DNA of 56,983 bases. Source: a virus. The position numbers and the translations under genes are program-made. Location: the IMG/VR virus record IMGVR_UViG_3300036772_000333, positions 1 to 56,983 of that record, one strand, 5' to 3'. Shown one piece after another: positions 41,259 through 56,827 of the stretch. Every line of letters begins with the position of its first letter. Position 1 is the stretch's first letter. Under the pieces are notes generated by a model. The model saw only the letters and a list, made by a program, of their open reading frames with translations, made no database searches and was not told the origin of the DNA.

Positions 41259-41713
41259 TGGATGACCTCGGTCTCAGTCGGGGCCTTGACCAGCAGGTCT
41301 TCCGCATTGAAGGTCTTGGTGGTGGACGGGGGCAGCGGTGCTGCGGATTCCTGCATCGCGCTCACCCCGTAAACACTGTTTCTGTTTAGCTTAGCTTCTC
41401 GATTATCACATGCCTTGAGCGCCACTTGCAGCAACTCCCGCTCCGCATTCGAACAATCGGAAGACGCCATGCGCGCCTGAATGTCCCTGCGCCACTGCTC
41501 GATCCTGTCTCTCCGTCGGAGGTAGTCGCTGTAGAGCATCTGGCCGTGTTCGGCACGTGTCTGTGCATTGAGCTTCTTGAAGATGCCGTCCATCACCGAC
41601 GGCGAGGTGGTCTCGAACCGCTGATATCCGGCAGGGACAGGAGATTGCGGAGAGGTCAGAAACACTCGCCCGTCTTCGTTTTCACAGTACCAAAGTCTTT
41701 CGAATCCGTTCAT
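41255..41713 (-). CDS. Hypothetical protein between terminase and portal
   Basis: 152 residues. The ATG overlaps the terminase stop and the stop overlaps the portal start. It is helical in the centre (SDYLRRRDRIEQWRRDIQARM, then NAERELLQVALKACDNREAK). No signal or metal motif. It may assist packaging or portal assembly. Confidence 0.5.
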   Translation of the reverse strand: MNGFERLWYCENEDGRVFLTSPQSPVPAGYQRFETTSPSVMDGIFKKLNAQTRAEHGQMLYSDYLRRRDRIEQWRRDIQARMASSDCSNAERELLQVALKACDNREAKLNRNSVYGVSAMQESAAPLPPSTTKTFNAEDLLVKAPTETEVIQ

Positions 41714-43833
41714 ACGTCAAACCCCTCACTGATCAATGAGTATGGCACCGATACACCCACCGGGAAAGAATAATCTATGTCCGCGATCTGCTCATCCCGC
41801 ACAAACGCATGTTCGACCCGGCGGCTCATCGACTCCGTATCGTTGAAGATGATATAGGCGATAGCCGACGCAAAGATACGGTCGTCATGCTTGCCGGAGG
41901 CGTGATCGTAGCGCGTCTTGCCTCCAGCCGCCTGGTCGATCTGGAACGATGGTATCTCGTTTCGAAGCAGGAACGGCGAGTTGAGCTTGTACCAATGATT
42001 TTCTACGGCGTTCTTATACATCCCCAGCATGAACGTACGCGACCAGTCGAAGGTATACCAGCCCTCGCGCTTCGACTTCTTTTGATCATGCTTCGGGTTT
42101 TTTCCGTCCAGGCGCGAGAATTTGTAAAATCTGCGGTAGCCGTGCATCTTCATCTGAATCTGTGCAGCGTCACCTGTGCCGTATACCTGTTCCACGGCCA
42201 CAAGTGGTTCTCTCTCCATCTCCTGCCCATAGAGCGCGGCAACAGCCATGATCCACGCATGAGCCATCGCATGAGGAACTCTGTTTGATGCAAACTCGGC
42301 GACTTGGACATCTGGCTCTGTACCGTCAATCGATCGCCGATTAACACAGATGACAGTGTTATCTCCTCCAGAACCTCCAGCGGTGTCCACACCAATCGAG
42401 TAGTCGTATCCCTCTTCCGGCCATTCAAAAACCACCAGCTTACAGTCCGCATCGAAGATGTCTCCTCCCTTTTCCGGCGGGGTCACGAGTGGAACGAACT
42501 CCCAGATCATCTCCCGATTCTGCTTGCCATGAATGTCGTGTACCACGCCGTTATACGAAACTCTGAACCGGTCTGCCTCATAGTCGATGTCGTTCGGAAG
42601 CGGATGATACTTTTCCTGAATCTGCTCTCCGGTGATCGCCCAAAGCGTGTATGGCTGCCGGTCTTTGTACTGCGTGTCAATCTCCGATAAGTCGAATACG
42701 AGGTCTTTCTTCGGCTGGAGAGCTTCGATATCGTCAATCGGATGCTCCTGCAGAAAGCCTTTTGCGTTGCCTTTCCGTCGTGCCTCAAGAAACTTGTACT
42801 CCCAGTAGTACGACTGAAAGTCAGGCATTCGCCACGAGTCGCCGTAGAACTTCCGCATCAATGGTGTTTGGTGGACATACGCTGCCGCTTTCATGACCAT
42901 GCGTTCGGTCTCTACAAGGGAGGGACGCCAGCCGACAGGAACGGGGTGCTCTCGTCTCCAATCAATCGTGGGAAAGAGGTCTTCCGCGCAGAACCATGGA
43001 AAGAATACCGGCTGAAGCCGCGCTCCGCCCGTATGCCAGAAATCTCGTGAGGAGTACCACGTCTTGGCCCACCAGTCCGTGTTTCCCTTTCCCGTTGACT
43101 CCAGAACCATGAATACGCGCGGAGACGTGTGGACGGCAGCAAACAGAGAGTTTTCAATGACATTTTGTGCGTCGGGGAACTCACAAACCTCCGAAATATG
43201 GAGCACCGACGGAGTGTCGCCACGAGCGATACCTGAAGCCTTCCGGCCGGAATAGAGCGTCAATCGAGTGGAGTTGGCTCCGAACGCCATCAGATTTCCG
43301 GCTCGATCCGAGGTCGGATTTGCTTTCATCCATGCCGGCATTTCGTTATAGCCGAGCTGCATCATGCCCGCCATGCGTTCGCAGGCATCCGCGTCATACG
43401 AGGCTACTGCAGCCTTGACCCCCATGCCGAAGTTGACCTGATGGGTGATCGCCCCCTCCACCTCAGTGCTGATTCCCTGCTGCCTGGCCTTCAATATCTG
43501 CTGTTCAATCCCGAATCCCAGGTCTTGTCTCTCTGCCCACAGGTCTAACAGCATCTGCTGACTGGCGCGCCGCTCAAATCGTTTGATCTCGCCCGAAGCG
43601 TTGATGTAAAAGTAGTTATTGGACCAGTACCGATAGTCGCAGGCACAAATTTGGTACTCATTGGCAATCCAAGCAAGTTCTTCAGGTCCGAGGGATACCT
43701 CTATATCGGTACCGTTACGCTCACACTTTCTTCCTATCTCGACAAAGTGGGAGTTGAACGAGTCAATCTCCGAAAGCGAGTGATACTCCGGTATCCACCC
43801 CGTCTTCTTCGACAGAGTTTCAAGTTTTTCCAA
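41710..43833 (-). CDS. Terminase large subunit
   Basis: 707 residues from TTG 43833; an ATT seven codons earlier has a better GGGAGG site, so the start is uncertain. ATPase part: KARQQGIST (~115-123, Walker A type), VLHISEVCEFPD (~210-221, Walker B with the catalytic Glu). Nuclease part: YSIGVDTAGGSGGDNT (~478-495) and KHDDRIFASAIAY (~666-678) carry the metal-binding Asp residues. It drives DNA into the portal and cuts concatemers. It lies directly after the small-subunit candidate. Confidence 0.88.
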   Translation of the reverse strand: MEKLETLSKKTGWIPEYHSLSEIDSFNSHFVEIGRKCERNGTDIEVSLGPEELAWIANEYQICACDYRYWSNNYFYINASGEIKRFERRASQQMLLDLWAERQDLGFGIEQQILKARQQGISTEVEGAITHQVNFGMGVKAAVASYDADACERMAGMMQLGYNEMPAWMKANPTSDRAGNLMAFGANSTRLTLYSGRKASGIARGDTPSVLHISEVCEFPDAQNVIENSLFAAVHTSPRVFMVLESTGKGNTDWWAKTWYSSRDFWHTGGARLQPVFFPWFCAEDLFPTIDWRREHPVPVGWRPSLVETERMVMKAAAYVHQTPLMRKFYGDSWRMPDFQSYYWEYKFLEARRKGNAKGFLQEHPIDDIEALQPKKDLVFDLSEIDTQYKDRQPYTLWAITGEQIQEKYHPLPNDIDYEADRFRVSYNGVVHDIHGKQNREMIWEFVPLVTPPEKGGDIFDADCKLVVFEWPEEGYDYSIGVDTAGGSGGDNTVICVNRRSIDGTEPDVQVAEFASNRVPHAMAHAWIMAVAALYGQEMEREPLVAVEQVYGTGDAAQIQMKMHGYRRFYKFSRLDGKNPKHDQKKSKREGWYTFDWSRTFMLGMYKNAVENHWYKLNSPFLLRNEIPSFQIDQAAGGKTRYDHASGKHDDRIFASAIAYIIFNDTESMSRRVEHAFVRDEQIADIDYSFPVGVSVPYSLISEGFDV

Positions 43834-43884
43834 GGATTTTCTAGTGGAAAAAATGACTAATCCTCCCTACAAAATTCGCGGCGG

Positions 43885-44598
43885 CTAAACATCGCGTTCC
43901 ACCAACACGTCCGACTGCAAGTGGTCAAGCTTACCGCCGATCACGATGGGCGATGACGCCGGAGCTGGAAGCCTACGGGCTTCGGTCATGTCATGAATCG
44001 CCCTCAACCGCTCATCGGCCGTCTGCCACAGCGCTGGAGCGTCCTTCGGAGTCTCCTTCTCCTCTTGCACTGCTCCGTTGTTGTTCTGGATCGCGATGAC
44101 ATTACCCTTGGGCATCGGACGGACGTTGCCTGCCTGGAGAATCCAGCCACGGTCCGTAAGGCCCTCGTCCTTCAGTGCCATCTTGATCGATTTCTCAACC
44201 ACCTTCGGCATCTTGGAGGCAAGGATGAGTTTGGTGCGTATCTGTCCGCTCAAGAGGACCGCCGTCTGCGCCACCTCCGCAAGACGCAGCGAACCCACCC
44301 CCGCAGCGTAGGATATCTCTTCCAAAGACACATGATTGCGGTCTGTAGCGGTGAGCATGTCATAGGTCTCCAGAAAGTCTCGCGTATCGTCCTCGTCGTA
44401 GGCCCTGAGCGCATGGATCAGCGCCGGGATGCCCCCGTCCACTGCCTTCAATAGTGGCGTAATGATGATCTCTTCCGATGGATCGAACTCCTCACCCTCG
44501 ACACCGTTCCAATGGGCGCGCAGCTTGTCCATCGCCACCGCTCGTGCGCGATCCTTGGACTTGCCCTGCTTCACCTTGATGGCTACCTTGGGGGGCAT
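43885..44598 (-). CDS. Probable terminase small subunit
   Basis: 237 residues, GGAG five bases before the ATG. Central part (residues ~75-160) has helical pairs and a helix-turn-helix look (VSLEEISYAAGVGSLRLAEV). The C-terminal half is Pro/Gln/Asn-rich and ends in a LVERDV tail. It stands one gene before the large subunit, where the DNA-recognition subunit usually lies. Assigned by position and composition, not by a clear family match. Confidence 0.6.
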   Translation of the reverse strand: MPPKVAIKVKQGKSKDRARAVAMDKLRAHWNGVEGEEFDPSEEIIITPLLKAVDGGIPALIHALRAYDEDDTRDFLETYDMLTATDRNHVSLEEISYAAGVGSLRLAEVAQTAVLLSGQIRTKLILASKMPKVVEKSIKMALKDEGLTDRGWILQAGNVRPMPKGNVIAIQNNNGAVQEEKETPKDAPALWQTADERLRAIHDMTEARRLPAPASSPIVIGGKLDHLQSDVLVERDV

Positions 44599-45012
44599 TT
44601 ACGCTCCGCGTACCTGATTCTTCGGGCGAGCCTTGTTCTCCGGGCGCGGGCCGCGCTTGACCCACTTCTCCGATGACGTTCCCTTGCCGTCGGTCACCAG
44701 TACCGGCACCGGCAAGTCCGCATCCTCGCGTACCTGGTTCGGTGGACGCAGCGGAATGTCCAGTACATCATCGATGGTTGGTTCCGCTTCGATGCCTTCT
44801 TGGTCTCCCGCTTCCACGGTCAAGTCCCGCTCCACCGGCGGGGTAAAGGTCAGGTGCGGATAGAATTTGAATCCAATCTCCGCCTTGAACCCGTTGTAGC
44901 TCATGTGGGACGAAAAGCGGTCATCCTTTCCGAGTGCCGTCCTTAGCGACTGGAGGCATGATTCGAGCGCTTCGGGACCGGAGAGTGGCTTTGCTATGGA
45001 TACTTCTGTCAT
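44599..45012 (-). CDS. Hypothetical protein upstream of the terminase genes
   Basis: 137 residues, AAAGGAG before the ATG. Residues ~30-58 are mixed alpha/beta (HMSYNGFKAEIGFKFYPHLTF), then an acidic linker and a basic Pro/Arg/Lys end (KWVKRGPRPENKARPKN). The basic tail may contact DNA. The first ~30 codons overlap the XRE regulator gene in another frame. Confidence 0.5.
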   Translation of the reverse strand: MTEVSIAKPLSGPEALESCLQSLRTALGKDDRFSSHMSYNGFKAEIGFKFYPHLTFTPPVERDLTVEAGDQEGIEAEPTIDDVLDIPLRPPNQVREDADLPVPVLVTDGKGTSSEKWVKRGPRPENKARPKNQVRGA

Positions 45013-45244
45013 TCGCTGCTCCTTTGTTATCGAATATCGTGTCGCACTTCTCTAGCCAATTGATGCGGATAGCGTAGAGATTGAGTAGTTTTTCCAAGGT
45101 CCGGGTCTGTGGCTTACGATCCCCGCGCTCCAGATAGCACAGCGTCGCCTCGCTCACCCCCGTCAGCTCGACAACCTGCATCTGGGAGAGATGGGCGCGC
45201 TTGCGGAGAGATTTAAGCTTCGGCCCCGGGTACCGGTTTAGCAT
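44921..45244 (-). CDS. XRE-family helix-turn-helix regulator
   Basis: 107 residues from ATG 45244. HTH at residues ~20-42 (LSQMQVVELTGVSEATLCYLE) with the family's RGDRKPQTRTLEKLL continuation. The C-terminal ~40 residues are basic and disordered. It lies at the head of the terminase operon, beside the divergent promoter of the glycan cassette, so it could regulate either. The same genome has a second XRE protein at 6702-6926. Confidence 0.75.
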   Translation of the reverse strand: MLNRYPGPKLKSLRKRAHLSQMQVVELTGVSEATLCYLERGDRKPQTRTLEKLLNLYAIRINWLEKCDTIFDNKGAANDRSIHSKATLRSRSARIMPPVAKDGTRKG

Positions 45245-45416
45245 AATCCCCAACACTACCATCACTCACAACCGACGACAAGATCAATTCAATATTGCGC
45301 TCTGCCGTGTCGAACTGCTGTTTGCGGAATTCATCGACCTTTGATGCCCTGCCGAGCTTCAAGGCGATGAGCGCGTTGCCTAACTTTTGGGTCACATCGT
45401 CGCGAACAAGTATCAT
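45213..45416 (-). CDS. Small hypothetical protein, first of the head operon
   Basis: 67 residues from ATG 45416, eight bases after GAGG. Helical (DDVTQKLGNALIALKLG, then EFRKQQFDTAERNIELIL). It overlaps the XRE gene by 32 bases. No promoter for it is clear in the 64-base gap to the divergent gene. Confidence 0.45.
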   Translation of the reverse strand: MILVRDDVTQKLGNALIALKLGRASKVDEFRKQQFDTAERNIELILSSVVSDGSVGDYAKPVPGAEA

Positions 45417-45430
45417 GGCGAAATCCTCTG

Positions 45431-45459
45431 TTGACACCATAGCACCGATCGAGTAATGT
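45431..45459 (+). promoter_or_regulatory. Promoter of the glycan cassette
   Basis: Perfect -35 TTGACA (45431-45436), 17-base spacer, TAATGT (45454-45459, three of six). The first gene's ATG is at 45481, with an AGGG-type ribosome site. It points away from the head operon. Confidence 0.6.
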
Positions 45460-45480
45460 TAGGGGGAATTTAGGGATGAC

Positions 45481-46635
45481 ATGACACAAAAACTGCTGCT
45501 GGTTTCCGATTCCGCCTCGTGCCACTCCGGTCTTGGTCGCATCACGAGAGACCTCGCTACGCGCATCCACGCCGATCTGCCGGAGTTTGAGGTGGCAACC
45601 GCCGGATTCGGTGGTCCCGGCAATAAAGACTTTGGGTGGCCGGAGTACCACTTCCACGAACTCAATAACTTTATGCCTCCCGAACTGCCGATGATCTGTC
45701 AGGACTTCGCGGGAGATGAAGAGTTGATTGTTCTGTGCATCTGGGACCCATCCAGGCTAAGGTGGTTTGCCAATCCAGACCAATGCCCAATGCCGATGAT
45801 GCGGCAGTGGCTCAAAGTCGCCAACATCCGCAAGTGGATTTATGCGCCGATTGATGCCGAGGGGCCAAACGGAAAACTCAGCGTCCGGTTGCAGGAGTCG
45901 CTTGCCGGATTCGAGCGCGTTCTCAACTACTCCAAGTGGTCGGCCGGCGTAACCGGATACCCCGACTTCATTCCTCATGGACTGGATACCGAAGCCTGGA
46001 GACCCCGCGATAAGTCGGAGGCAAAGAAGGTTCTTGGGGAGTTGGGGTTCCACGGACTCAAGGAAACAGATTTCCTTGTCGGCATGGTCGCGACCAACCA
46101 GGCACGTAAAAACTATGCTCTGGGTATTCAGACGTGCCGCATCCTTCTCGAAAGAGGTCTCGATGTCAAGGTGTGGGTTCACATCGACTCTCTTGAACGC
46201 CACTGGAATATCATCTCTCTGGTCGAAGACTACGGATTGCAGGGTCGGGTCATGATCACCACAAGCAACTTCACCGACATGCAGATGCGGTACATGTACT
46301 CTGCCTGCAACGTAACCCTGGGTATCGGTCTCGGCGAAGGGTTCGGCTATCCGATCTTCGAGTCCATGCTTTGCGGCACGCCCTGCGTCCATGGAAACTA
46401 CGGCGGGGCTGCAGAGCATTTGCCTTCGTGGATGAAGGTCGATCCGATACCCTATGCATGGTTCTATGAGTCTCCCTACTGCAATAAGCGCCCGGTTTAT
46501 CTGCCTGAACAGTGGGCGGCAAAGGCGGAGGAAGCTGCTGAAAACCCAGACATCGCCGATATCAATGCGCTGGAGTTGGACTGGAGCAAGGTATGGCCGA
46601 AGTTCAAATCTTGGCTGAAAGCAGGGTTGCGATGA
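45481..46635 (+). CDS. Glycosyltransferase family 4
   Basis: 384 residues. N-terminal domain begins LLLVSDSASCHSGLGRITRDLA with the usual Gly-rich loop. The C-terminal domain has NQARKNYALGIQTC, then GEGFGYPIFESMLCGTPCV (residues ~285-303), the E-x7-E type nucleotide-sugar site of GT4. It is the first gene of the plus-strand cassette behind a sigma70 promoter. It would transfer a sugar from a nucleotide donor to an unknown acceptor. Stop overlaps the next start as ATGA. Confidence 0.88.
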   Translation: MTQKLLLVSDSASCHSGLGRITRDLATRIHADLPEFEVATAGFGGPGNKDFGWPEYHFHELNNFMPPELPMICQDFAGDEELIVLCIWDPSRLRWFANPDQCPMPMMRQWLKVANIRKWIYAPIDAEGPNGKLSVRLQESLAGFERVLNYSKWSAGVTGYPDFIPHGLDTEAWRPRDKSEAKKVLGELGFHGLKETDFLVGMVATNQARKNYALGIQTCRILLERGLDVKVWVHIDSLERHWNIISLVEDYGLQGRVMITTSNFTDMQMRYMYSACNVTLGIGLGEGFGYPIFESMLCGTPCVHGNYGGAAEHLPSWMKVDPIPYAWFYESPYCNKRPVYLPEQWAAKAEEAAENPDIADINALELDWSKVWPKFKSWLKAGLR

Positions 46636-47309
46636 TCGAGATGGTATGCACTACTCTGTGGCAACCGCGATGGTCCGAGTGTGTTCAGTCGTGGCGCGAC
46701 ACCGCCAATGCTTACCTTCCCGTCAACGTAATCGCAGGTCAAACTCTGATGCACGCCTACGAGCAAGGCAGGATCGAGTCGACAGAAACTATCCTGGGAT
46801 ATGTCCACGATGACGTGATCATTTATGAAAAGGGGTGGGATGAGCGCGTGCGTCGAGAGTTTGAAGACTTGAATGTAGTGATGGTTGGATTCGGAGGGGC
46901 TTTGGGACATGGGCACCCGGCACTCTATTCTCCCCCTTACCAGATCGGGAAGCTGGCTCGTCAGCAGTTCATGTCGAACATGAGGAATGCAGAGCAGCAT
47001 GGGCAGAGGTTCAGCGAAGCGCGGGATGTTTCGGTGCTGGACGGGTTCGCGGTGTTCATCCGTCGGTCATTTCTCCAAGAGTGTGGCGGGTGGCCGCAAG
47101 ATGGAAGTTACGGTTATTTTCTTTATATGGAATATATGTGTTGCATGTCGAGGCGCCTCGGCTATAACATCAGGCTAGTGGGAGTCGATTGCGAACACTT
47201 GGGGGGAAAGTCCTCCGGACTAAAACAGGATCAGGTTTTTGATTATGAAGGCGAACATCTCCGGCTATATGAGCAATTCAAAGACGTTTTACCCCACCGA
47301 GTCCCCTGA
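46632..47309 (+). CDS. Glycosyltransferase-like protein (GT2-type fold)
   Basis: 225 residues from ATG 46632 (ATGA overlap). YVHDDVIIYEKGWDERV holds a D-x-D-like pair in the right place for a GT-A donor site. VLDGFAVFIRRSFLQECGGW is the usual acceptor-domain pattern of GT2 enzymes, and EYMCCMSRRLGYNIRLV follows. The 3' end overlaps the homing endonuclease gene by 65 bases, so the gene end may have been altered by that insertion. Confidence 0.7.
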   Translation: MIEMVCTTLWQPRWSECVQSWRDTANAYLPVNVIAGQTLMHAYEQGRIESTETILGYVHDDVIIYEKGWDERVRREFEDLNVVMVGFGGALGHGHPALYSPPYQIGKLARQQFMSNMRNAEQHGQRFSEARDVSVLDGFAVFIRRSFLQECGGWPQDGSYGYFLYMEYMCCMSRRLGYNIRLVGVDCEHLGGKSSGLKQDQVFDYEGEHLRLYEQFKDVLPHRVP

Positions 47310-47964
47310 TTGGAGATATCTCGCGGGACTGTGGGATGGAGAGGGGTGCGTCGGTATTTGCTGTGTTAGGCAGAAGAGGAAGGACGGTACCTACAGCGTG
47401 TACTGGGATCTTCGCCTAATGCTGTCAAATACAAGCGAAAAATTGATCAGATCACTACTGGAGGAATTCGGAGGAAACGCCCATTTTGGGTCGAAGGTGT
47501 ATCCCTATGCGAAGAAGATAGCCAATCAATGGAAGGTTCAAAATTCCAGACATAGCTTGCACATCCTTAGAAATATTCTCCCTTTCCTCAGATACAAGGA
47601 TGAAGAAGCTAAGTTGGCCATAGAGTTTCTATCCGGGGTTGAGCGCAACAAAGGCGTAAGCCTATCCGCATCGGAAGTGGATCGACGCAACGACTTGATT
47701 GAAAGGATACGGCAAGTAGCGGGCCGAAGGGTCAAGCCAGTTAGGGCCGAAAAAATGGAGCACCGAACTCCGAACGCATCACTAAATCAGATTCCTGGGC
47801 CAAGAAATAAGTCTGGAATTATCGGAGTTTCGTGGATACCCAGCAAGGGGAAATGGATGGCGCACAAAGGCAAGGATGGGAAAAATAAAACGCTCGGGTA
47901 TTCAGACACCAAAGAAGGTGCCGCTGCCATACGTGCAGCACGAGATTTGGAGGACGCCGAATGA
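47245..47964 (+). CDS. LAGLIDADG-like homing endonuclease with AP2 domain
   Basis: 239 residues from ATG 47245; the true start may differ. Residues 25-34 hold YLAGLWDGEG, a LAGLIDADG-type motif with its acidic residue. An AP2-like DNA-binding domain fills the end (~187-238: SGIIGVSWIPSKGKWMAH, ..GYSDTKEGAAAIRAARD). It overlaps the glycosyltransferase upstream by 65 bases and couples to the next gene as ATGA. One LAGLIDADG motif suggests that it acts as a dimer. It is a likely mobile invader of the cassette. Confidence 0.8.
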   Translation: MKANISGYMSNSKTFYPTESPDWRYLAGLWDGEGCVGICCVRQKRKDGTYSVYWDLRLMLSNTSEKLIRSLLEEFGGNAHFGSKVYPYAKKIANQWKVQNSRHSLHILRNILPFLRYKDEEAKLAIEFLSGVERNKGVSLSASEVDRRNDLIERIRQVAGRRVKPVRAEKMEHRTPNASLNQIPGPRNKSGIIGVSWIPSKGKWMAHKGKDGKNKTLGYSDTKEGAAAIRAARDLEDAE

Positions 47965-48677
47965 TCAATCTCACGATGCTGGTCCACAATCGCCTCGACC
48001 TGACGAAACAGGCTCTCTCTTCGCTCGTGGCTCATACGCCCCTACACGCCGTCACGTTGACCGTGTTGGATGACGTGAGCGATGAACCTACCGCGCAATG
48101 GCTGCGCGACTTCCAGACGATTGCATGGCCGGAAGGTAAGATGCGCCTGATTCGGAACGAAGTAAGTCCAGGAACCGGTTTGGCTCGTAATCAGGTCGTC
48201 GCAGAGAGCGAACAATTTTTTGGTCGCGGACGGATGCTGTACCTCAGCGACAACGATGTGTACTTCAAAAAGGATTGGTTGCAGACGTTAGCCTCGGCTT
48301 ATGTAGAGTCGGTCGAGGATGACTACAAGGTCGTAGGGGGCTATAACCACCCGTTCAACGGCCCTATCGCCGGTATGCCGTGGTATCGCACCTTTGGCGT
48401 GGATATCTATCCAGTCTTCGCTCTGGCCAGTCAGTCGATGTTGCTGTCGTGGCATGTCTGGGATACCTTCGGCCCGTTCTGTCAGACGCCCGCGGGAAAG
48501 GTCTGCCAGAGCGAGGATGTAGACTTCTCGAACCGCGTTCGTGGAGCCGGTTTCAAGCTGGGTGTCGTCACTCCTCCTGTGATCGTCAACACCGGCATCA
48601 CCAACAGCTTCGGGGAGCCTATACCGGGCTGGCAGAACGTTCTTGCGGAAGCCCCCGGAGGTGTTCTCGTTGAGTAA
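47961..48677 (+). CDS. Glycosyltransferase family 2
   Basis: 238 residues. LTMLVHNRLDLTKQALSSL opens the GT-A fold; YLSDNDVYFKKDW holds the D-x-D metal site (SDNDV); CQSEDVDFSNRVRGAGFKLG is the GT2 acceptor-binding pattern (E-D-V/D-F). It follows the homing enzyme with an ATGA overlap and precedes a methyltransferase. Confidence 0.88.
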   Translation: MINLTMLVHNRLDLTKQALSSLVAHTPLHAVTLTVLDDVSDEPTAQWLRDFQTIAWPEGKMRLIRNEVSPGTGLARNQVVAESEQFFGRGRMLYLSDNDVYFKKDWLQTLASAYVESVEDDYKVVGGYNHPFNGPIAGMPWYRTFGVDIYPVFALASQSMLLSWHVWDTFGPFCQTPAGKVCQSEDVDFSNRVRGAGFKLGVVTPPVIVNTGITNSFGEPIPGWQNVLAEAPGGVLVE

Positions 48678-49242
48678 CGGCGTCGTCCATGTCGGAGCGC
48701 ACTGCGGAGAAGAGATTGAGGAGTACGCCGGCCGCTCCCCCATCATCTGCTTCGAGCCGCAAGCGACGATCTTTCCAGAAGGAGTCATTTGGGCGAACTT
48801 CGCTCTCGGCGATCATCATGGAGTGATCAACCTGTTTGTTCCGTGGCGTATCCATGGAGACGGACTCGATACCCAGATGGCAAGCGCCTACCCTCTGATC
48901 GAAGAGGTAGCGAACGAGATTGGATGGTCTGTCACTCGCTGCGAAGTCATTCCCGTTCCGGTGACGCGTTTTGACCTGTGGGCGATGAAGTACTTCTACA
49001 AAGAGGGTTCGTGTTCCCTTCTGGTGATCGACGCTCATGGTATGGAGCTGGAAGTTCTCGAAGGGTTTGGTCGGTACCTTATAAGCTTCACCGACCTCAA
49101 GATCGAATGCTGCGAAGTTTCGCCTTGGGACGGAGGCTGCTCTGCCTATGAAGTAGAGGAGTTTTTGAAGGGTCATGGGTTCAAGCGAACCAGCCCGATT
49201 CTATCGTGTGGTGATGTTTTCTTTACAAAGGAGCTACAGTGA
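48670..49242 (+). CDS. FkbM-family methyltransferase
   Basis: 190 residues from TTG 48670, eight bases after GGAGG and overlapping the previous stop. Motif I is VVHVGAHCGEE, then ICFEP for the acidic ribose contact, and LVIDAHGMELEVLEGF matches the FkbM D-x-x-G-x-E-x-x-V-L-x-G signature. Enzymes of this type O-methylate sugars. In this cassette it may cap a glycan. Confidence 0.82.
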   Translation: MSNGVVHVGAHCGEEIEEYAGRSPIICFEPQATIFPEGVIWANFALGDHHGVINLFVPWRIHGDGLDTQMASAYPLIEEVANEIGWSVTRCEVIPVPVTRFDLWAMKYFYKEGSCSLLVIDAHGMELEVLEGFGRYLISFTDLKIECCEVSPWDGGCSAYEVEEFLKGHGFKRTSPILSCGDVFFTKELQ

Positions 49243-49811
49243 TTCCAAGTTTTGAAGAGGTGATGCGTTTCACCACAACCGTAAGCGGCAGTACTGCACT
49301 TGAAGATGCCGATGCGTTCGGACTCTACAGTGCCTGCCTCGAAGTTCCACGAGGAGGAATTGTCGTTGAGACCGGATGCCAGCTCGGAAGGTCTTCGAGT
49401 TTGATTCTGCAGATGGCGCGGGCAATCGGCTTTCACTCCATCCACATCGATCCGTATACGGAACAGCCTGAGTTTCTATCCAATTGGGTCTCGATGATGC
49501 ATCGCCTGGGCGGCGAGCGCACGCGGGAGTTTACCTTCCTCTGCATGGAATCGCTCAAGTCGTCTTGGCTCATCCAAAAACTCGGTCCTATCGATATGTG
49601 TTTTATCGATGGAGATCACGAGTATCCCGGTGTCATGATCGATCTCGCACTGATTGCGGAGCAGGTTCGCCCCGGCGGCGTTCTCACGGCTCACGACTAC
49701 ACGAATGAGGGTCTTCCGGGAGTTACCCGAGCGATATCCGACTACATGGTCAAAGGAACGTGGGATCCCGTGGGCGTGTTCGGAACACTCGGAGTCTGGA
49801 GGCGGCAATGA
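49239..49811 (+). CDS. Class I SAM methyltransferase (Methyltransf_24-like)
   Basis: 190 residues from GTG 49239 (GTGA overlap; AAAGGAG upstream). VVETGCQLGRSSSLIL is SAM motif I, HIDPYTEQ the acidic strand end, MCFIDGDHEYPGVMIDL the strand-4 motif and GGVLTAHDY the post-motif. This pattern is used by glycan- and macrocin-type O-methyltransferases. The substrate is unknown. It follows the FkbM gene. Confidence 0.8.
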   Translation: MIPSFEEVMRFTTTVSGSTALEDADAFGLYSACLEVPRGGIVVETGCQLGRSSSLILQMARAIGFHSIHIDPYTEQPEFLSNWVSMMHRLGGERTREFTFLCMESLKSSWLIQKLGPIDMCFIDGDHEYPGVMIDLALIAEQVRPGGVLTAHDYTNEGLPGVTRAISDYMVKGTWDPVGVFGTLGVWRRQ

Positions 49812-50332
49812 AGATCGGATATAACGTCGGTAGTGGGCAGAGGCCCTTCAAGAGCACATCGGAAATCCAATGGATCAACACAGACAAAATTGCTCACGAA
49901 GGGATGCCAGCCCCCGACCTATTGGCCGATGGTGCACATCTCCCCTGCGGAGACCAAACCGCCGACTACTTTGTGCTCTCCCAAGTTTATGAACATTTTG
50001 GTTGCGGAGAAGCGATTGATCTGCTACAAGAGTCCTATAGAGTCTTAAAGCCGGGAGGATCGCTAATCATATCTGTTCCCAATATGAAGGCGATTGCCCA
50101 GAGATGGGTAGACGGCCTGATAGATGAGTACATTTTCATGGTCTGCACCTACGGTGCTTTCATGGGCCATGAAGAGGATAGGCATCGTTGGGGAACGACG
50201 CCTGAAAGTTTGGTTCGGGATATAGAAAAGAGTGCGAATTGGAAATCCATCCAAACCTTCAACTCTCGACCAATACCCGGACTCGACGTAGCAAGGGATT
50301 GGTGGATAACGTGTCTAGAAGCGATACGGTAG
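49808..50332 (+). CDS. Class I SAM methyltransferase, compact
   Basis: 174 residues from ATG 49808 (ATGA overlap). It opens KIGYNVGSGQRPFKST, a motif-I type loop, then VLSQVYEHFGCGEAIDLLQE and RVLKPGGSLIISVPN, the classic methyltransf_11 order. It ends near 50332, overlapping the next homing gene. It may add a methyl group to the glycan or to a small substrate; uncertain. Confidence 0.75.
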   Translation: MKIGYNVGSGQRPFKSTSEIQWINTDKIAHEGMPAPDLLADGAHLPCGDQTADYFVLSQVYEHFGCGEAIDLLQESYRVLKPGGSLIISVPNMKAIAQRWVDGLIDEYIFMVCTYGAFMGHEEDRHRWGTTPESLVRDIEKSANWKSIQTFNSRPIPGLDVARDWWITCLEAIR

Positions 50333-50979
50333 AAATACCGCTCACATTTAATAAGGTTGCCGTGATCGACTCGGATGATTTCGAGTCGATATCTCCATAC
50401 AAATGGAGAGCAGAGCGAACCAAACGTGGAACCTACTATGCGGTAGCCACCATTGGCAGAAAAAATGTTCGTATGCATCAATTGGTAATGCCTGATGCCG
50501 TGGAGCGAGATCACAAGGATGGCGATGGACTGAATAATCGAAGAAGCAATCTTCGATCTGTTACACATGCACAGAACATGCACAACTCACTAAAAGCAAG
50601 AACGCCGAATGCCAGCTCTAGATTTAAAGGGGTAGCTTTTCAGAAGAGGCTCAAGTCTCGACCTTGGCAAGCTCGAATTGGAGATAAGCACCTCGGATAC
50701 TTCGAGACCGAAGAAGAGGCTGGTACTGCTTACGACTTGGCCGCCAACGCTGAGCGTGGCGAATATGCGAAAACAAACAATCTGGATGTACCGATAACTC
50801 CGAATCATCGGTATCGAATAGTCCGAAAGGAATTTAGGGCACAGCCGATTCTGGGGCACCCAGAAGCTAGAATCCTTGAGTACGAATTGGAGTGCGGTCA
50901 CGTACATTCCATATCGGCGTGTAAGGCAGAAAAGATCGGCACAGAGTCGCGCTGCAAAACCTGCATTGGAGCAATATGA
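50311..50979 (+). CDS. HNH homing endonuclease with AP2 and zinc end
   Basis: 222 residues if GTG 50311 is the start. HNH core: RMHQLVMPD and ERDHKDGDGLNNRRSNLR. An AP2 domain follows (~103-150: SRFKGVAFQKRLKSRPWQARIG, ..YFETEEEAGTAYDLA), then a four-Cys end (CGH..SACK..RCKTC) which may bind zinc. It lies between a methyltransferase and a glycosyltransferase, coupled to the latter by ATGA. It is the second mobile gene in the cassette. Confidence 0.82.
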   Translation: MSRSDTVEIPLTFNKVAVIDSDDFESISPYKWRAERTKRGTYYAVATIGRKNVRMHQLVMPDAVERDHKDGDGLNNRRSNLRSVTHAQNMHNSLKARTPNASSRFKGVAFQKRLKSRPWQARIGDKHLGYFETEEEAGTAYDLAANAERGEYAKTNNLDVPITPNHRYRIVRKEFRAQPILGHPEARILEYELECGHVHSISACKAEKIGTESRCKTCIGAI

Positions 50980-51668
50980 TGAACCCGGTTCTAATCCTGA
51001 CTCATAATAATCTCGCCCTCACGAAGCGCTGTGTCGAAAGCCTCCGCAAGCAGACTGTGGATGTCGATATCAACATCTTCGACAATGGATCGACGGATGG
51101 AACCCCGGATTGGTGTATGCAGCAACACGATGTCGCGCCGTTCCTGTCCATGACGAACGTCGGCGTCAGCAAGGGTTGGAATAACGTCCTCAACATCCTG
51201 TTTCGAGAGGATGGGTTCGATCATGTTCTCGTAGTTGGCAATGATACAGTGCTTCCGCCGTGGTTCTACGCAGAACTCCTGAGTTATGATCTTCCGTTTG
51301 TGACCGGAGTGGCCGTCGACACGATCACCAGCATCGCAGCGCCGCCTACAGAACGCAAGACTGAGCCACACCCCGATTTCAGCGCCTTCCTCATCCGCCG
51401 GGACTGTTGGGAGAATGTTGGCCCCTTCGATGAGACGATGGAACTTTATGTACAGGACTGCGACTTTCACGTGCGCGCCCATCGTGCCGGGATCGAGTTG
51501 ATGAAGGCCAGCGTACCCTACTACCACGAGAGGAGTTCTACCCTACGCAATGCCCCGCCCCAAGAGCAGCGACAAATCCACGAGCAAGCCAATCGAGACC
51601 GCGCAACCTTCCGAGCCAAGTACGGATGTATCCCCGGTGAGGCGGCTTATGAAGACCTCTTCCGCTAA
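50976..51668 (+). CDS. Glycosyltransferase family 2
   Basis: 230 residues. VLILTHNNLALTKRCVESL, then INIFDNGSTDGTPDW (GT2 donor loop), VLVVGNDTVLPP as the D-x-D-like metal site, and YVQDCDFHVRAHRAGIEL as the acceptor motif. ATGA overlap with the homing gene. It is the last catalytic gene of the cassette. Confidence 0.88.
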   Translation: MMNPVLILTHNNLALTKRCVESLRKQTVDVDINIFDNGSTDGTPDWCMQQHDVAPFLSMTNVGVSKGWNNVLNILFREDGFDHVLVVGNDTVLPPWFYAELLSYDLPFVTGVAVDTITSIAAPPTERKTEPHPDFSAFLIRRDCWENVGPFDETMELYVQDCDFHVRAHRAGIELMKASVPYYHERSSTLRNAPPQEQRQIHEQANRDRATFRAKYGCIPGEAAYEDLFR

Positions 51669-51849
51669 GAAGCGCATTTACCTTCAGTTCGAGAGGCCGG
51701 AGGACTTGGAGCTTTACGATCGTCTTGCTAAAGATGCCGTAGAGAAGCGGTACGATCTTCCTGTCTACACCCTTCTGGTACTCTTGGCGGCGTATCCTAA
51801 GACCTTATCCGGTACAGGTGAGGAAGTTGATCGGGTGTCACCGGAGTAG
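51649..51849 (+). CDS. Small hypothetical protein at the cassette end
   Basis: 66 residues from ATG 51649, or 99 from ATG 51550 with a Ser/Thr/Pro-rich N-terminus that overlaps the glycosyltransferase. The core (KKRIYLQFERPEDLELYDRLAKDAVEKRYDLP) looks like a small ribbon-helix-helix or helical domain. It overlaps the convergent nuclease-like gene by 53 bases. Possibly a small regulator; not proven. Confidence 0.45.
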   Translation: MKTSSAKKRIYLQFERPEDLELYDRLAKDAVEKRYDLPVYTLLVLLAAYPKTLSGTGEEVDRVSPE

Positions 51850-52690
51850 GAGAGTAGCAACATGCCTGATAGGGACAAGCACCCCTTCCGACTTCATCGC
51901 ATGCAGACCGTCTCATCGGGGACGTTTCTTGTGTATGCGGCATACTCCGGGCCATGTCCTTCATATCTGAACGAGCTTGAACCATCCTGCTGTCCGCCGG
52001 GTCGTATCTTATTTCCCGATTCAAGATCAATTCGTCTAATACCCCGTCTGATTGCATCACCTTCAGCCAGTCTACCGTCGCTATCTGAGACTGATCCCGC
52101 CATACTTCTTGCCAATCCAACGAGCCTCCACTCCGCTTCCTGAACCTTAGTTCTCGGTTGCTCGGATGAAGATGGCCCTTAGTCCATGCGCTATGGCGTC
52201 GACCGTGGCTGTGCGATCCAAGAATCACGGCGGTCAAGGTCAGCGATCGTTCGAGTGCAGCAAGCTCTCCTATCGTTCCCCACGAGTGAGCGTAGCTGCG
52301 GAGTGCGTCATCGTTCCAATGCCCCATCAGGACGATGCGGTGACCGCTGAATAGGTTCGAATGCCACTCGTGCTCGCCAAACGGTACAGGTTCCTGCTTT
52401 TCAAGATTCCCCAGACGACACTGGAGCGCCACCGCGAGGATGCCGGCTAGGTATCCGGTGTGCCGCACTACCATAAAGCGGTTCTCTGCGGTGTCCAGGT
52501 CGCGCTCCTGTGCGATCCGCAGTGTCGTGTCCTTAGCCTCCTGCTCAGGGTCCTCTGAGACCAGGGCGGCCTCCAGTGCGGCGTACAGCAGTCCCAGAGG
52601 CGTGATGGAACGAGGTTCGTATTTTCGACTCAAGGCATAGCGCCTCTCGCAACGATCGTGCTCGTCCAGCATCGCAGGCGTCAGGATCAT
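51797..52690 (-). CDS. Cas4/RecB-like Fe-S protein, catalytic residues unclear
   Basis: 297 residues. The N-terminus (LTPAMLDEHDRCERRYALS, C14) and C-terminus (ACDEVGRGACPYQACC: C264, C272, C277, C278) give the one-plus-three Cys spacing of Fe-S PD-(D/E)XK nucleases such as Cas4 or AddB. Between them I see GHWNDDAL and a ..LTLTAVILGSHSHGRRHS stretch, but no clear D...ExK. It is the last gene of the ejection-protein operon (ATGA overlap). It may be an inactive or diverged nuclease with a structural role. Confidence 0.5.
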   Translation of the reverse strand: MILTPAMLDEHDRCERRYALSRKYEPRSITPLGLLYAALEAALVSEDPEQEAKDTTLRIAQERDLDTAENRFMVVRHTGYLAGILAVALQCRLGNLEKQEPVPFGEHEWHSNLFSGHRIVLMGHWNDDALRSYAHSWGTIGELAALERSLTLTAVILGSHSHGRRHSAWTKGHLHPSNRELRFRKRSGGSLDWQEVWRDQSQIATVDWLKVMQSDGVLDELILNREIRYDPADSRMVQARSDMKDMARSMPHTQETSPMRRSACDEVGRGACPYQACCYSPTPVTPDQLPHLYRIRS

Positions 52691-53682
52691 TGCACAAATT
52701 TTCTTATTTCATTTGCTCCAGCCGCCCCTGCAGCCGCTGCACCTACAATTGGTGCTGATTTTTTTAATCGATTCAACGTGTTAGTCCCAAGCCTTTTTAC
52801 TTGGCTCCCACGGTGATACTCCCGCATTGCGGAGTAGTACCGATCACGTATCGCCGGTATTGGAATCGCTTCTCCGATATCGTGTTTGAACGCTTCCGCC
52901 ACTTGCCCAATTTTTCTCCTCATCTCAGGTTTCATTGACATCTTCTCTTCAGAAGATAGCGTCGTGATGTTCTTGTAAAATCTCCGCGCCTCGTCGTAGG
53001 TGATAGGCCCTTTATTGTCTCCCCACCGCTTCACGAGTTTCTTGATGACTGGAGGGACGGATGAACCCGCGTCGAAATCCTGCATGATATTCATAAGCGG
53101 TCCTTCGCTCTTGGTGAGATTGACAGGAACACCCTTCATCACCGTCTCGAGTTGGTTCAGTATTTCTCCAGCATGAGCAGTCGAAGGGATAGCCTCAATC
53201 GCCTTTGACGCCACACTTTCGCCGGTCATGTATCCGGGAATCTCCATCGCCTTGAGGATGCCCTTGCCAGTGTCGATCGCACCCTTTATCGGAGTGTCTT
53301 TCATCTCAGCAATTCCCTGAGCGGTATTTGTAGCGCCCAGCAGCGGACTGCCCATCATATCGCCAGCTTCCTTCGATACGCCCGCCTCGATACCATTGAA
53401 GCCCTTATCGCCGCGCCCCTGCATCATGCCGAGCACCCGACCGACTCCGGTACGTGTGCCGCCTTGGGTGATATCGTTTTCAGCGTTCTTCAGCCAATCG
53501 AAGACGGGAGTCTTGTTGTCTGGGGTAGCCGTGATGCTGGGCTTATCTCCCTGCTTCTGGTAGCCAAGCCGCGTGGCAAGGGTGGTCTTCTGCTCCGGCG
53601 ACATGGCCGCCATCGCCTTTGTCCGCTGCTCCGGGGTGAGAGCCTTCCACTGCGCGCCGATATCGGGTGCCTGGTCTGCCAT
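52687..53682 (-). CDS. Probable ejection (internal virion) protein
   Basis: 331 residues. It starts ADQAPDIGAQWKALTPEQRTKAM, and the LTPEQxxxAMAAMSPEQK pattern is shared in style with phage ejection proteins. The middle is Gly/Met/Lys-rich and amphipathic (GGTRTGVGRVLGMMQGRGD). The end is Ala-rich and could enter a membrane (APIVGAAAAGAAGANEIRKF). It overlaps the previous gene by one base and the next by four. Such proteins pass into the host envelope with the DNA. Confidence 0.55.
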   Translation of the reverse strand: MADQAPDIGAQWKALTPEQRTKAMAAMSPEQKTTLATRLGYQKQGDKPSITATPDNKTPVFDWLKNAENDITQGGTRTGVGRVLGMMQGRGDKGFNGIEAGVSKEAGDMMGSPLLGATNTAQGIAEMKDTPIKGAIDTGKGILKAMEIPGYMTGESVASKAIEAIPSTAHAGEILNQLETVMKGVPVNLTKSEGPLMNIMQDFDAGSSVPPVIKKLVKRWGDNKGPITYDEARRFYKNITTLSSEEKMSMKPEMRRKIGQVAEAFKHDIGEAIPIPAIRDRYYSAMREYHRGSQVKRLGTNTLNRLKKSAPIVGAAAAGAAGANEIRKFVQ

Positions 53683-55169
53683 TAGAAACTCTGGAGAAAC
53701 TTGTCTACTGCTGCATCGCCGGTCTTCTTGGCGGGTTGGTCAGGCTGTGGATTCTTGATTGCATCCTGGGCCGCCGGAACGACGTTGTTCTGTAACCACT
53801 TAATCTTGTCATACATCAACTTCGGCGTGTCGGTCGGGTGCGGGAGATGTTGCTGGACGACCTCAAAGGTATAGCGGCTGCGACCAATCTTCGTCCACAA
53901 GGAAGCACCGAGAACGCTCATCAGCGCGGTGTTCTCGAAGATTTTCGTGAGGTTAGGATCGGACGGCGGGATGCCTCTCTTATACTTGGCAAACTCGAGC
54001 CGCATCTTCACCGCATCCTCGAGGCTCCCATTGTTTTTCAGTGGTTCGAGAAGAGGCAAAACGTCGTTGACGGACGAGATGATCTGCTTCGAGGATTCGA
54101 GCGTCTGTTTATCCGCGTTGCTCTGAAGCTTATGATTCGCCAGCGAAGAGAGGCCGGGAACCACGGTTTTATCCTTGGGCGCACCGCCAGGGGGCTGAGT
54201 GACCGGCTTTGGCTTGACGATGCCTCCCACAGAGGACTTGCCGACCGGTTGAGCAGAGGTGGGGGGCTTTGCCGCTTCGCCCCCGTCCGTTTGGGCCTCT
54301 GACTCGGGAGTAACATCGATCTTTTCGCCCTGCGGCGTACTAACGGTCGTCAGGGTAACCATGTGCATCTGCCCGTCATCTCCGGGTTGCAACTGCTGCC
54401 GTGTCGTGACCTTTCCGGTATCAATAGGGCCAACATCACGCAGCTTCGCCCCCGTTGAGGGGTCTACGAGAACGAGGTGCCCTGCAACCTTCTTGAGCAC
54501 CGGCTTCGCCTTAGCCACCGGCCAGAATGAGCCATTCCACTCCACAAACGAGTTGCCGGCATTGCGCGCATCCTGCGGAATCGGCTGTCCATCGGGACCA
54601 ATAGCCTCCGGAGGAAGAGCGTTTCCCGGCAGTGGAGGTGACTTGCCGGCCGGCTTGTGATACTTCGCCTGAGCTGCGGCGCGCGCATCGATTGCCGCCA
54701 GCATCGCCTGTTGCTTCAACTCCGCCTGTTTTTCCTTCTGCGCCTCATCCGCTGCGCCCGTGCCTCCGGGAGGTACCGCGTTAGGCAATGGCTTCATCGG
54801 TGGTGCGTTGCCGGCCGTAGCGCCGTTCGGATGGATCACCTGACGAAGCTTCTCCATCAACTGCGGCGCGTGGCGCGGGTGGGAGTAGAGTCCCGTGATT
54901 TGGTCAACGTACTGCTGCTGTTGCTCGGGGGTCAGAGTGCCGTACTTCCGGCCTATCTCCAGCTGCGATTCCAGTTCCTGGGCCTTGGATGCGATGCCAG
55001 CATCTTCCAGTTTGTACGCCTGGGCACGCTTCTCCGCGTCGATCTGCGGAGCCTCACCGGAGACCACCTCTGCTGTACGCTGCAGTACCGGCACAGCGAT
55101 GGTCCCAGCGGCTTTGACCCCCTTCTCGAGGCCCGACCCGATCGTCGATAGGATGTCGCCGATTGCCAT
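53682..55169 (-). CDS. Probable ejection (internal virion) protein
   Basis: 495 residues. N-terminus AIGDILSTIGSGLEKGVKAAGTI suits membrane insertion. Then helices with LTPEQQQQYVDQITGLY (residues ~75-92), a long Pro/Lys/Gln/Ala-rich region (120-330) and a helical C-terminal part ending DAAVDKFLQSF. Composition and the adjacent 331- and 203-residue proteins fit a podovirus ejection set. TAATG overlaps couple it to both neighbours. Confidence 0.55.
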   Translation of the reverse strand: MAIGDILSTIGSGLEKGVKAAGTIAVPVLQRTAEVVSGEAPQIDAEKRAQAYKLEDAGIASKAQELESQLEIGRKYGTLTPEQQQQYVDQITGLYSHPRHAPQLMEKLRQVIHPNGATAGNAPPMKPLPNAVPPGGTGAADEAQKEKQAELKQQAMLAAIDARAAAQAKYHKPAGKSPPLPGNALPPEAIGPDGQPIPQDARNAGNSFVEWNGSFWPVAKAKPVLKKVAGHLVLVDPSTGAKLRDVGPIDTGKVTTRQQLQPGDDGQMHMVTLTTVSTPQGEKIDVTPESEAQTDGGEAAKPPTSAQPVGKSSVGGIVKPKPVTQPPGGAPKDKTVVPGLSSLANHKLQSNADKQTLESSKQIISSVNDVLPLLEPLKNNGSLEDAVKMRLEFAKYKRGIPPSDPNLTKIFENTALMSVLGASLWTKIGRSRYTFEVVQQHLPHPTDTPKLMYDKIKWLQNNVVPAAQDAIKNPQPDQPAKKTGDAAVDKFLQSF

Positions 55170-55546
55170 TAGTTGCTCGAATCACTCGCGCAGATAGTGA
55201 CCTTGTCGCCCGAGGAGCTGCCATCGATGTAGTATCGACTGATGTCCAAGACGCTCTCCGTCAAGGGGTCGTTGGGAAACCCCACATACGGTTGATTGGG
55301 TCCGATCACCGCAACCGTCCGGTTGACATCGCGCCCCGCGAAAGGGCCGTCGTTGATATAGACCAGACCCGTATTACCGGGAGTCGATAAAGTCAACTGA
55401 CGGCAGGATGCGGAGAACGGTTGGGTCGCCTTCTGCGCCCCGACGATGGAGGTCAGAGCGATAGGTGTGCCGGAGGTAATGGTGAAGGTACCGAGGGGCC
55501 AGACTCCGCCGATAGCATTGGTTTCAGGTCGGGACTGTGGTGGCAT
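55169..55546 (-). CDS. Small virion-associated beta protein
   Basis: 125 residues from ATG 55546, AGGAG five to seven bases before. Beta-rich (GTFTITSGTPIALTSIVGAQ, then VYINDGPFAGRDVNRTV), Cys at residues 48 and 119. It lies between the collagen-like secreted protein and an ejection protein. Likely a small tail or decoration component; no family recognised. Confidence 0.5.
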   Translation of the reverse strand: MPPQSRPETNAIGGVWPLGTFTITSGTPIALTSIVGAQKATQPFSASCRQLTLSTPGNTGLVYINDGPFAGRDVNRTVAVIGPNQPYVGFPNDPLTESVLDISRYYIDGSSSGDKVTICASDSSN

Positions 55547-55554
55547 GTATTCTC

Positions 55555-56196
55555 CTAGTAAACTGCTCCATTGTAAGCCTGAGCCGAGGGTGTCAGCCCG
55601 AGAGTCAGTGCCGTGCAAAATTGTGGGGTTACCGTATTCGCAGCACTCACGAAACACTGTGGTTGCACATTGGAAGGCTGCGTCCCGCCCGCACCGCTCA
55701 TCGTGCAGGACATGCCTGTGGTCGCGCCAGGTACCGTGATGGGTGTCTGGTTCGCACAGCCCAGCGTAATGAGAGCGCCGCCAATGTTTCCCGTAACAAA
55801 CTTGATCGGAGAGCTGCCCGCTGCGCCGGTGGCTCCTTGGGGTCCGGTGGCCCCGGTAGCCCCGGTATTTCCTGTTGGACCCTGAGCGCCTGTAGGGCCA
55901 GCCGGTCCGGTGGCTCCCATCATGCAATTGGAGTCCGCCGGCACCCACTGCAGTGCGGAGTTCTGGCAGAACAATGCAACCGCCGGGGGTGGAAAGTTGG
56001 CGGCCTGCCCTGTACTGGTCGTCGTCAGGGGAGTCCAGCCGTCTCCGGCGAAGGTAAAGGCTCCGACGGGGCTGGGGTTGGAGATGTTCTGCGCGACTCC
56101 ACGAAACAGGATGGCCGACGCCGATAGAAGCACGAATAGAAGCGAATAATTCATCATTCGTTTCATGAGCACTTGCTGCTGAGCGATACTCAACAT
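55555..56196 (-). CDS. Secreted collagen-like virion protein
   Basis: 213 residues from ATG 56196 (AGGAG about eight bases before). Hydrophobic signal in residues ~15-35 (YSLLFVLLSASAILFRGVAQ). Residues ~93-130 are a collagen-type G-x-y run (GATGPAGPTGAQGPTGNTG) followed by ATGAAGSSP. The end is beta-rich with several Cys (NQTPITVPGATTGMSCTMSG). It resembles collagen-repeat fibres found in phage tails, here again with a signal. Confidence 0.6.
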   Translation of the reverse strand: MLSIAQQQVLMKRMMNYSLLFVLLSASAILFRGVAQNISNPSPVGAFTFAGDGWTPLTTTSTGQAANFPPPAVALFCQNSALQWVPADSNCMMGATGPAGPTGAQGPTGNTGATGATGPQGATGAAGSSPIKFVTGNIGGALITLGCANQTPITVPGATTGMSCTMSGAGGTQPSNVQPQCFVSAANTVTPQFCTALTLGLTPSAQAYNGAVY

Positions 56197-56207
56197 ACTC
56201 TTTTCTC

Positions 56208-56819
56208 CTAAGAAAGCAGTCCTGCGAAGTCGGATGGTACCTCCGAAACCCCGGAGGTTGGGTTAGCCGCAATCTGTTGCGCGTTGTAAAGCCCCTGATA
56301 GGGGTCGGAGGCCCCGCCGATGGGAAGTCCGGTGGCAATCGAGGCAACACCGCTCGCAATGCCGCCTACCGCGTTATCCATCCGGCTCCGATTCGCCTGA
56401 GCCAATCCCGCCTCCGAGTTGATGTTCCCGGAGGCTTGACTCAGTAGATTCGTTCCCAGCCCAGCCTCTCCCGCCGCAGCCGAGGACTTCAGTTGCCCCT
56501 CTAAATCGATGATATTTCCACGAGACTGGCTTACGCCCGCCTGAGTCGCAGCGTTCAATCCCCCGGAGCGGTTTCCGAACTGAGCGTTGGCATTACGGGA
56601 CTGCTGTAACTGATCCTGATTCGCTTTGATCTCAGGGGCAAGCGCTTCGGCCTCTGCCGGTCCACCAGCCAGAATATCGCCATAGAAGTCATTCGCTGCG
56701 TTGACCGCGCCGGTGCCTGTACTGCTCTCCTGCGTCCCTAGCGTGCTGAGCTGGTTCTGCTCCGACTGCGTGGGGTTTCCCGAAAGTATGTCGAAAATAC
56801 TGCTTACGAGACTTCCCAT
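56208..56819 (-). CDS. Probable small internal virion protein
   Basis: 203 residues from ATG 56819 (AGGAG five bases before it, better than the GTG at 56825). Short hydrophobic start (GSLVSSIFDILSG), then long amphipathic helix rich in Ala, Gln, Asn and Gly (EIKANQDQLQQSRNANAQFG), ending in a Gly-rich hydrophobic part (GGIASGVASIATGLPIGG). It resembles T7 gp14-type ejection proteins in layout. First of the ejection set after the fibre gene that crosses the join. Confidence 0.55.
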   Translation of the reverse strand: MGSLVSSIFDILSGNPTQSEQNQLSTLGTQESSTGTGAVNAANDFYGDILAGGPAEAEALAPEIKANQDQLQQSRNANAQFGNRSGGLNAATQAGVSQSRGNIIDLEGQLKSSAAAGEAGLGTNLLSQASGNINSEAGLAQANRSRMDNAVGGIASGVASIATGLPIGGASDPYQGLYNAQQIAANPTSGVSEVPSDFAGLLS

Positions 56820-56827
56820 GATCACTC

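Follow-up and report, generated by a model that had tools for sequence, protein, structure and literature searches.

The 56,983-nt virus record IMGVR_UViG_3300036772_000333 of IMG/VR, analysed over its whole length and hereafter called the window, covers one circular phage genome completely, bases 1-127 being identical to bases 56857-56983 (a 127-bp end repeat). On its plus strand, positions 45481-51849 hold a cassette with one GT4-family glycosyltransferase (GT), three GT2-type GTs, an FkbM-type methyltransferase and two other S-adenosylmethionine (SAM) methyltransferases. Pfam supported all seven enzymes, confirming the families, place and strand given in the original prediction, whose GT2-like enzyme is the one named GT2a here. 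The genes are:

45481..46635, plus strand: GT4, 384 aa, the opening gene of the cassette and its most widespread member (Pfam Glycos_transf_1, 3.8e-10)
46632..47309, plus strand: GT2a, 225 aa, Glyco_tranf_2_5 family (PF13712, 2.1e-10)
about 47269-47964 (start uncertain), plus strand: LAGLIDADG+AP2 homing endonuclease, between GT2a and GT2b (LAGLIDADG_1, 7.7e-8; AP2, 6.3e-6)
47961..48677, plus strand: GT2b, 238 aa, with a DND motif (PF00535, 1.1e-7)
48670..49242, plus strand: FkbM-type SAM methyltransferase, TTG start (PF05050, 3.1e-9)
49239..49811, plus strand: MT24, Methyltransf_24-family SAM methyltransferase, 190 aa (PF13578, 5e-15)
49808..50332, plus strand: MT11, short Methyltransf_11-type SAM methyltransferase, 174 aa (PF08241, 9.8e-8)
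about 50302-50979 (start uncertain), plus strand: HNH+AP2 homing endonuclease, between MT11 and GT2c (HNH_3, 1.2e-6)
50976..51668, plus strand: GT2c, 230 aa, last enzyme and second core member (PF00535, 2.9e-8)
51649..51849, plus strand: 66-aa protein overlapping GT2c, with GGTGAGG upstream and a counterpart at the same place in the related contig L100 (3e-6)

The tight coupling of the enzymes described earlier is borne out: most neighbouring genes share 4-8 nt where one stops and the next starts (4 nt in the case of the GT4 stop and the GT2a ATG), and Shine-Dalgarno-like sequences lie ahead of most starts, with GGAGG preceding the TTG start of the FkbM gene at 48670. The two homing endonucleases in the chain had been left unnamed. 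Promoter and terminator scans returned nothing above chance, and no membrane-helix-like hydrophobic segment was found in the cassette proteins (highest 19-residue mean 1.33). Since no sugar-nucleotide synthesis was recognisable among the window genes, host donors must be used, and the earlier description of a 'full set' was too strong; the building and methyl capping of a glycan, by contrast, agrees with the enzyme families and with the NDP-sugar-type epimerase, DegT/DnrJ aminotransferase and further GTs of the relatives described below. Sequence searches of the PDB with GT2a, GT2c and MT24 were uninformative, and the 66-aa protein may have a regulatory or DNA-binding function.

A profile built from four phage GT4s led to one locus, L011, and an alignment of the window and L011 GT4s to nine loci, i.e. 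seven IMG/VR contigs with near full-length GT4 matches (L091-L096 and L098; GT4 identity about 31-44%), the L011 contig itself (L097) and a weak match (L099); two further contigs, L100 and L101, came from genome collections. The close GT4 orthologues were reached only by this two-sequence alignment: single-sequence queries of viral_contigs with GT4 or MT24 gave zero matches, as did tblastn with GT2a and MT24, and phage records held zero nucleotide matches to window positions 41000-53700. Gene order in the relatives was read by phmmer with the window proteins on six-frame open reading frames (ORFs); the relatives are mostly fragments, and the ten cassette-bearing contigs are few.

The cassette is found at two kinds of site, either within the head operon or facing p297, a gene of the window's right flank. 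An orthologous cassette (GT4 identity 43-44%) lies inside the head operon of L091, L092 and L101, between the genes for the large terminase subunit (TerL) and the portal and on the same strand as these. L091 reads, on one strand, small terminase subunit (TerS), TerL, two small ORFs, GT4, GT2c, portal, scaffold and major capsid protein (MCP); L092 reads TerL, GT4, NAD-dependent epimerase, an unknown gene, an MT24-family gene, GT2a, GT2c, portal, HNH, scaffold and MCP; and L101, from the single-cell genome of an uncultured bacterium, reads TerL, a small gene, GT4, a GT2-like ORF, GT2c, portal, scaffold and MCP. TerL, further ORFs, an HNH+AP2 gene and GT4 (4-nt overlap) follow one another up to the contig end in L097. 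Facing p297 as in the window are the cassettes of L093 (GT4, GT2a, a short-chain dehydrogenase/reductase, a DegT/DnrJ aminotransferase and GT2c) and of L100, which belongs to a metagenome-assembled genome (MAG) labelled 'uncultured Acidobacteria bacterium' (GT4 with 47% identity, MT24 and a GT2). L094, whose cassette likewise faces p297, holds GT2a, GT2b, MT24, a GT_PLOD-type GT, MT11 and GT2c, with GT4 about 3 kb on and then p297. The remaining contigs carry GT4, Band_7, GT2a, further GTs, GT2b, GT_PLOD, MT11 and GT2c (L098), GT4, a radical SAM/SPASM protein (L095:12271-13389) and a GT2c relative (L095), or GT4, a weak GT2c relative and an FkbM-family protein of their own (L096). The Band_7 gene of L098 (L098:7286-8146) encodes an SPFH/Band_7 protein and stands directly after GT4.

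Relatives of GT2c occur in six contigs (29-55% identity), those of GT2a in L092, L093, L094 and L098, those of GT2b in L094 and L098, those of MT24 in L094 and L100 (with the same family present in L092), and those of MT11, with the same C-terminus, in L094 and L098. Relatives of six of the seven enzymes, i.e. all but FkbM, therefore co-occur in other phages, and this recurrence argues against a chance assembly. While GT4 and GT2c are mostly retained, the genes between them vary (epimerase, short-chain dehydrogenase/reductase, sugar aminotransferase, extra GTs and methyltransferases). In the two cases measured, both enzymes surpass the virion genes of the same phages in identity: L093 and the window share 55% identity in GT2c and 42% in GT4 vs 35% in TerL, 33% in MCP and 31% in p297, and L101 and the window 52% and 43% vs 33% in TerL, 32% in the portal and 31% in MCP. 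Either exchange of the cassette or slower evolution of both enzymes would produce this pattern; we infer exchange between phage lineages.

Introns were considered for both endonucleases and rejected, as Rfam gave no intron family match at either gene and the flanking enzymes are full length, GT2a and MT11, which precede them, being so by alignment with relatives; both endonucleases are therefore read as free-standing genes. The 3' end of the LAGLIDADG gene provides the GGAGG for GT2b, and L094 offers an empty site, with GT2a and GT2b overlapping directly. The LAGLIDADG protein (47269-47964) fuses a single-motif LAGLIDADG domain to AP2, a domain which in phages more usually accompanies HNH nucleases; its AP2 match is under Pfam's own cut-off and backed by PHROG matches. 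In the HNH protein, phrog_99 (8e-30) spans the HNH domain and an AP2-like part, the latter assigned from PHROG matches, and relatives of this protein lie beside GT4 in L097 and after the portal in L092. Of all genes in the chain, the two endonuclease genes are the poorest in GC (0.49 and 0.48 vs 0.55 for the genome), MT11 being low as well (0.495). Nuclease genes have been described at the borders of exchanged phage segments (PMC10448857), which fits the presence of two endonucleases in the cassette.

Similar genes are found in named phages. The GT4 homologues of Pontimonas phage phiPsal1, Synechococcus phage S-CBS4 and Microcystis phage Mae-JY09 (1e-25 to 2e-31 with the GT4 profile; GT4 identity 23-28%) adjoin portal or MCP genes, and GT2c homologues stand beside GT4 in phiPsal1 and S-CBS4 (1.3e-16 and 1e-12). 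These two phages also resemble the window in having an annotated SAM methyltransferase near GT4 and GT2c, all placed among portal and MCP genes, while Mae-JY09 has GT4 and an epimerase-like protein. The three groups comprise two or three enzymes in contrast to the seven of the window, and those of phiPsal1 and S-CBS4 lie in the head cluster; the relatives L091, L092 and L101 share this placement, and the window cassette adjoins the head block on the opposite strand. Beside 21 more distant GT4 clusters a GT2c-like gene was mostly not found, and the GT4-GT2c pair is therefore claimed only for the relatives listed and the two named phages.

In our view, the cassette is quite likely a locus open to exchange between phages, with a virion protein as the putative target of its glycosylation and O-methylation. 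The original prediction had left three acceptors open, i.e. virion proteins, the host surface and DNA; virion proteins are favoured because of the head-operon placement in relatives and because neither a membrane-like protein nor a base-preparing enzyme was found. The soluble GT4 would add the first sugar, taken from a host sugar nucleotide, to a side chain of a virion protein in the cytoplasm, an abundant one (major capsid, head or tail protein) being the candidate acceptor. GT2a, GT2b and GT2c would lengthen this sugar into a short chain, which FkbM, MT24 and MT11 would cap by O-methylation of sugar hydroxyls. With constant end enzymes and a middle exchanged between phages, each phage would carry its own surface glycan, and the two homing endonucleases at gene junctions would probably promote such swaps or, failing that, be carried along with them. 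The phage would probably gain an altered particle surface, affecting stability, non-specific adsorption or protection from particle-binding factors. A wider proposal, which we regard as speculative and rather doubtful, is an endonuclease-assisted, serotype-like virion glycan locus common to unrelated tailed phages, in which fixed GT4 and GT2c genes would anchor interchangeable sugar-making and methylating genes, moved as a unit into the head operon or the p297 boundary and diversifying the particle surface as bacteria diversify their O-antigens.

Among the papers found, proof of virion glycosylation in tailed phages comes from mycobacteriophages, and Che8, Corndog and Myrna use their own GTs to glycosylate virion proteins, capsid and tail-tube proteins among them, according to PMC12363180 (for Che8 and Corndog, Freeman et al. 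2023). Che8 resembles the window in its adjacent phage GTs with an HNH gene nearby: three adjacent GTs are followed by a small gene and the HNH gene, and the C-terminal half of the first GT looks methyltransferase-like by eye. Unlike the window cassette, these genes lie at the far right genome end. Homology to Che8 gp108-110 was rejected, as the GT4 and GT2c profiles gave no significant match (HMM, hhalign); the cassette is therefore likened to the Che8 system and not counted as a member, although it would work in a similar way.

Chloroviruses provide a second comparison. The AlphaFold model of GT4 (pLDDT 86) found its best PDB match in the chlorovirus NY-2A GT4 B736L, at 18% sequence identity. 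Chlorovirus GTs are described as soluble, and completion of the capsid glycan is tentatively attributed to a GT-methyltransferase protein (PMC5408694). PBCV-1 and NY-2A (A064R, A546L/B736L) resemble the window in their soluble virus GTs, including a GT4, and in a methyltransferase domain with a presumed role in capping the terminal rhamnose; they differ in being viruses of eukaryotic algae, and B736L is a structural match and not a functionally characterised comparator. Chlorovirus GTs are early genes. The GT2c model (pLDDT 94) matched rhamnosyl-, fucosyl- and GalNAc-transferases alike.

Several points weigh against a virion acceptor. GTs in hypervariable regions of pelagimyophages have been interpreted as O-chain modifiers (PMC7029224). 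The cassette strand is opposite to the head genes in both the window and L093, so that late co-expression would be an assumption there, and the GT4 and GT2 folds are uninformative on the acceptor. Among 123 genes neighbouring the 21 more distant GT4 clusters, the PHROG families seen most often are major head, head-tail adaptor, scaffold and protease, which speaks for a virion role, but these counts stand without a control set from an unrelated gene. Tunturiibacter phage Tunturi_1, a relative of the window phage, lacks the cassette.

The interpretation given to the pelagimyophage GTs would favour enzymes that alter host lipopolysaccharide or exopolysaccharide in infection and so block superinfection, and O-antigen clusters commonly hold FkbM, MT11-type and GT families. 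We nevertheless consider such a function improbable, since the cassette holds no membrane-like protein, flippase or polyprenyl-phosphate GT and since its orthologues lie in the head operon, which is expected to be expressed late, at a time ill-suited to exclusion. The GtrABC serotype-conversion cassettes of temperate phages are, like the window cassette, phage-borne glycan-modifying genes, but these systems need membrane proteins (GtrA, GtrB and the Gtr-specific one); in the cassette, Pfam gave no Gtr family hit, and no membrane flippase or membrane GT was seen. The lack of any membrane-helix-like segment fits a cytoplasmic protein acceptor instead of a Gtr-type surface system. A product unrelated to the particle, i.e. 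a free or lipid-linked glycan or a glycosylated host protein or peptide, would be compatible with the radical SAM/SPASM protein of the L095 cassette, such proteins being often found in peptide modification; we regard it as very improbable because unrelated phages repeatedly have such genes among their head genes. Least credible is DNA hypermodification, with GTs and methyltransferases acting on modified bases: DNA-glycosylating phage GTs exist (literature cited in PMC12619734), but the relatives' cassettes hold sugar-nucleotide-type enzymes instead, and Pfam, run on 77 ORFs from the early region and elsewhere, found no thymidylate synthase/hydroxymethylase, TET/JBP, nucleotide kinase or other base-preparing enzyme.

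If virion glycosylation is correct, a non-homologous, modular and more elaborate cassette, methyl-capped and variable, in Acidobacteria-linked phages would be added to the mycobacteriophage systems, its core pair being common to cyanophage and actinophage head clusters, and sugar coats on particles would be more widespread than assumed and evolve through the swapping of modules. Tunturi_1, cultured and free of the cassette, would serve as a natural negative control.

The cassette is flanked on both sides by minus-strand genes:

41710..45440, minus strand: left flank with TerL, a TerS-like protein, p137, a helix-turn-helix protein and a 75-aa ORF, divergent from the cassette
51797..56825, minus strand: right flank with p297, p331, p495, p396 and p205, convergent with the cassette

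Both blocks had been called virion blocks. This holds for the left one, which includes TerL, portal and MCP; the right one (51797-56825) gave no family match of its own. As it continues past the circular join into homologues of Tunturi_1 virion genes at 784-4062 and 4046-5443, we infer that the right-flank genes nearest the cassette are virion genes too. The order p297, p331, p495, p396, p205 is the same in L100, and L093 and L094 likewise have a p297 homologue on the far side of the cassette.

Tunturi_1 is a podovirus of Acidobacteriota (PMC11924767). Its terminase, portal, major head protein and internal proteins show about 28-36% identity to those of the window phage, which by this comparison is distantly related to the Acidobacteriota podoviruses Tunturi 1/2; four IMG/VR fragments with 63% TerL identity are closer kin. 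The MAG with L100 has a second contig whose terminase is 60-69% identical to that of the window, with no cassette between TerL and portal. Because this Acidobacteria MAG holds a window-like terminase, the host of the phage group is probably a member of the Acidobacteriota, binning errors being possible.

A further endonuclease ORF and intein-like insertions were seen in these phages. An HNH/AP2-type endonuclease ORF at window positions 34660-35196 (plus strand), inside the minus-strand virion block, is related to Tunturi_1 gp29 and to the cassette HNH protein. The portal gene L002:7897-10770 has an in-frame insertion of about 250 aa with intein-like ends (957 aa vs 706 aa in L005), and the portal match of L003 is divided at the same place. 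The TerL ORFs L101:2594-5590 (998 aa) and L103:4884-8153 (1089 aa) are oversized compared with about 710 aa elsewhere, and their homology to the window TerL is broken near residues 92-95 and 213-222; these insertions are probable inteins at two different positions.

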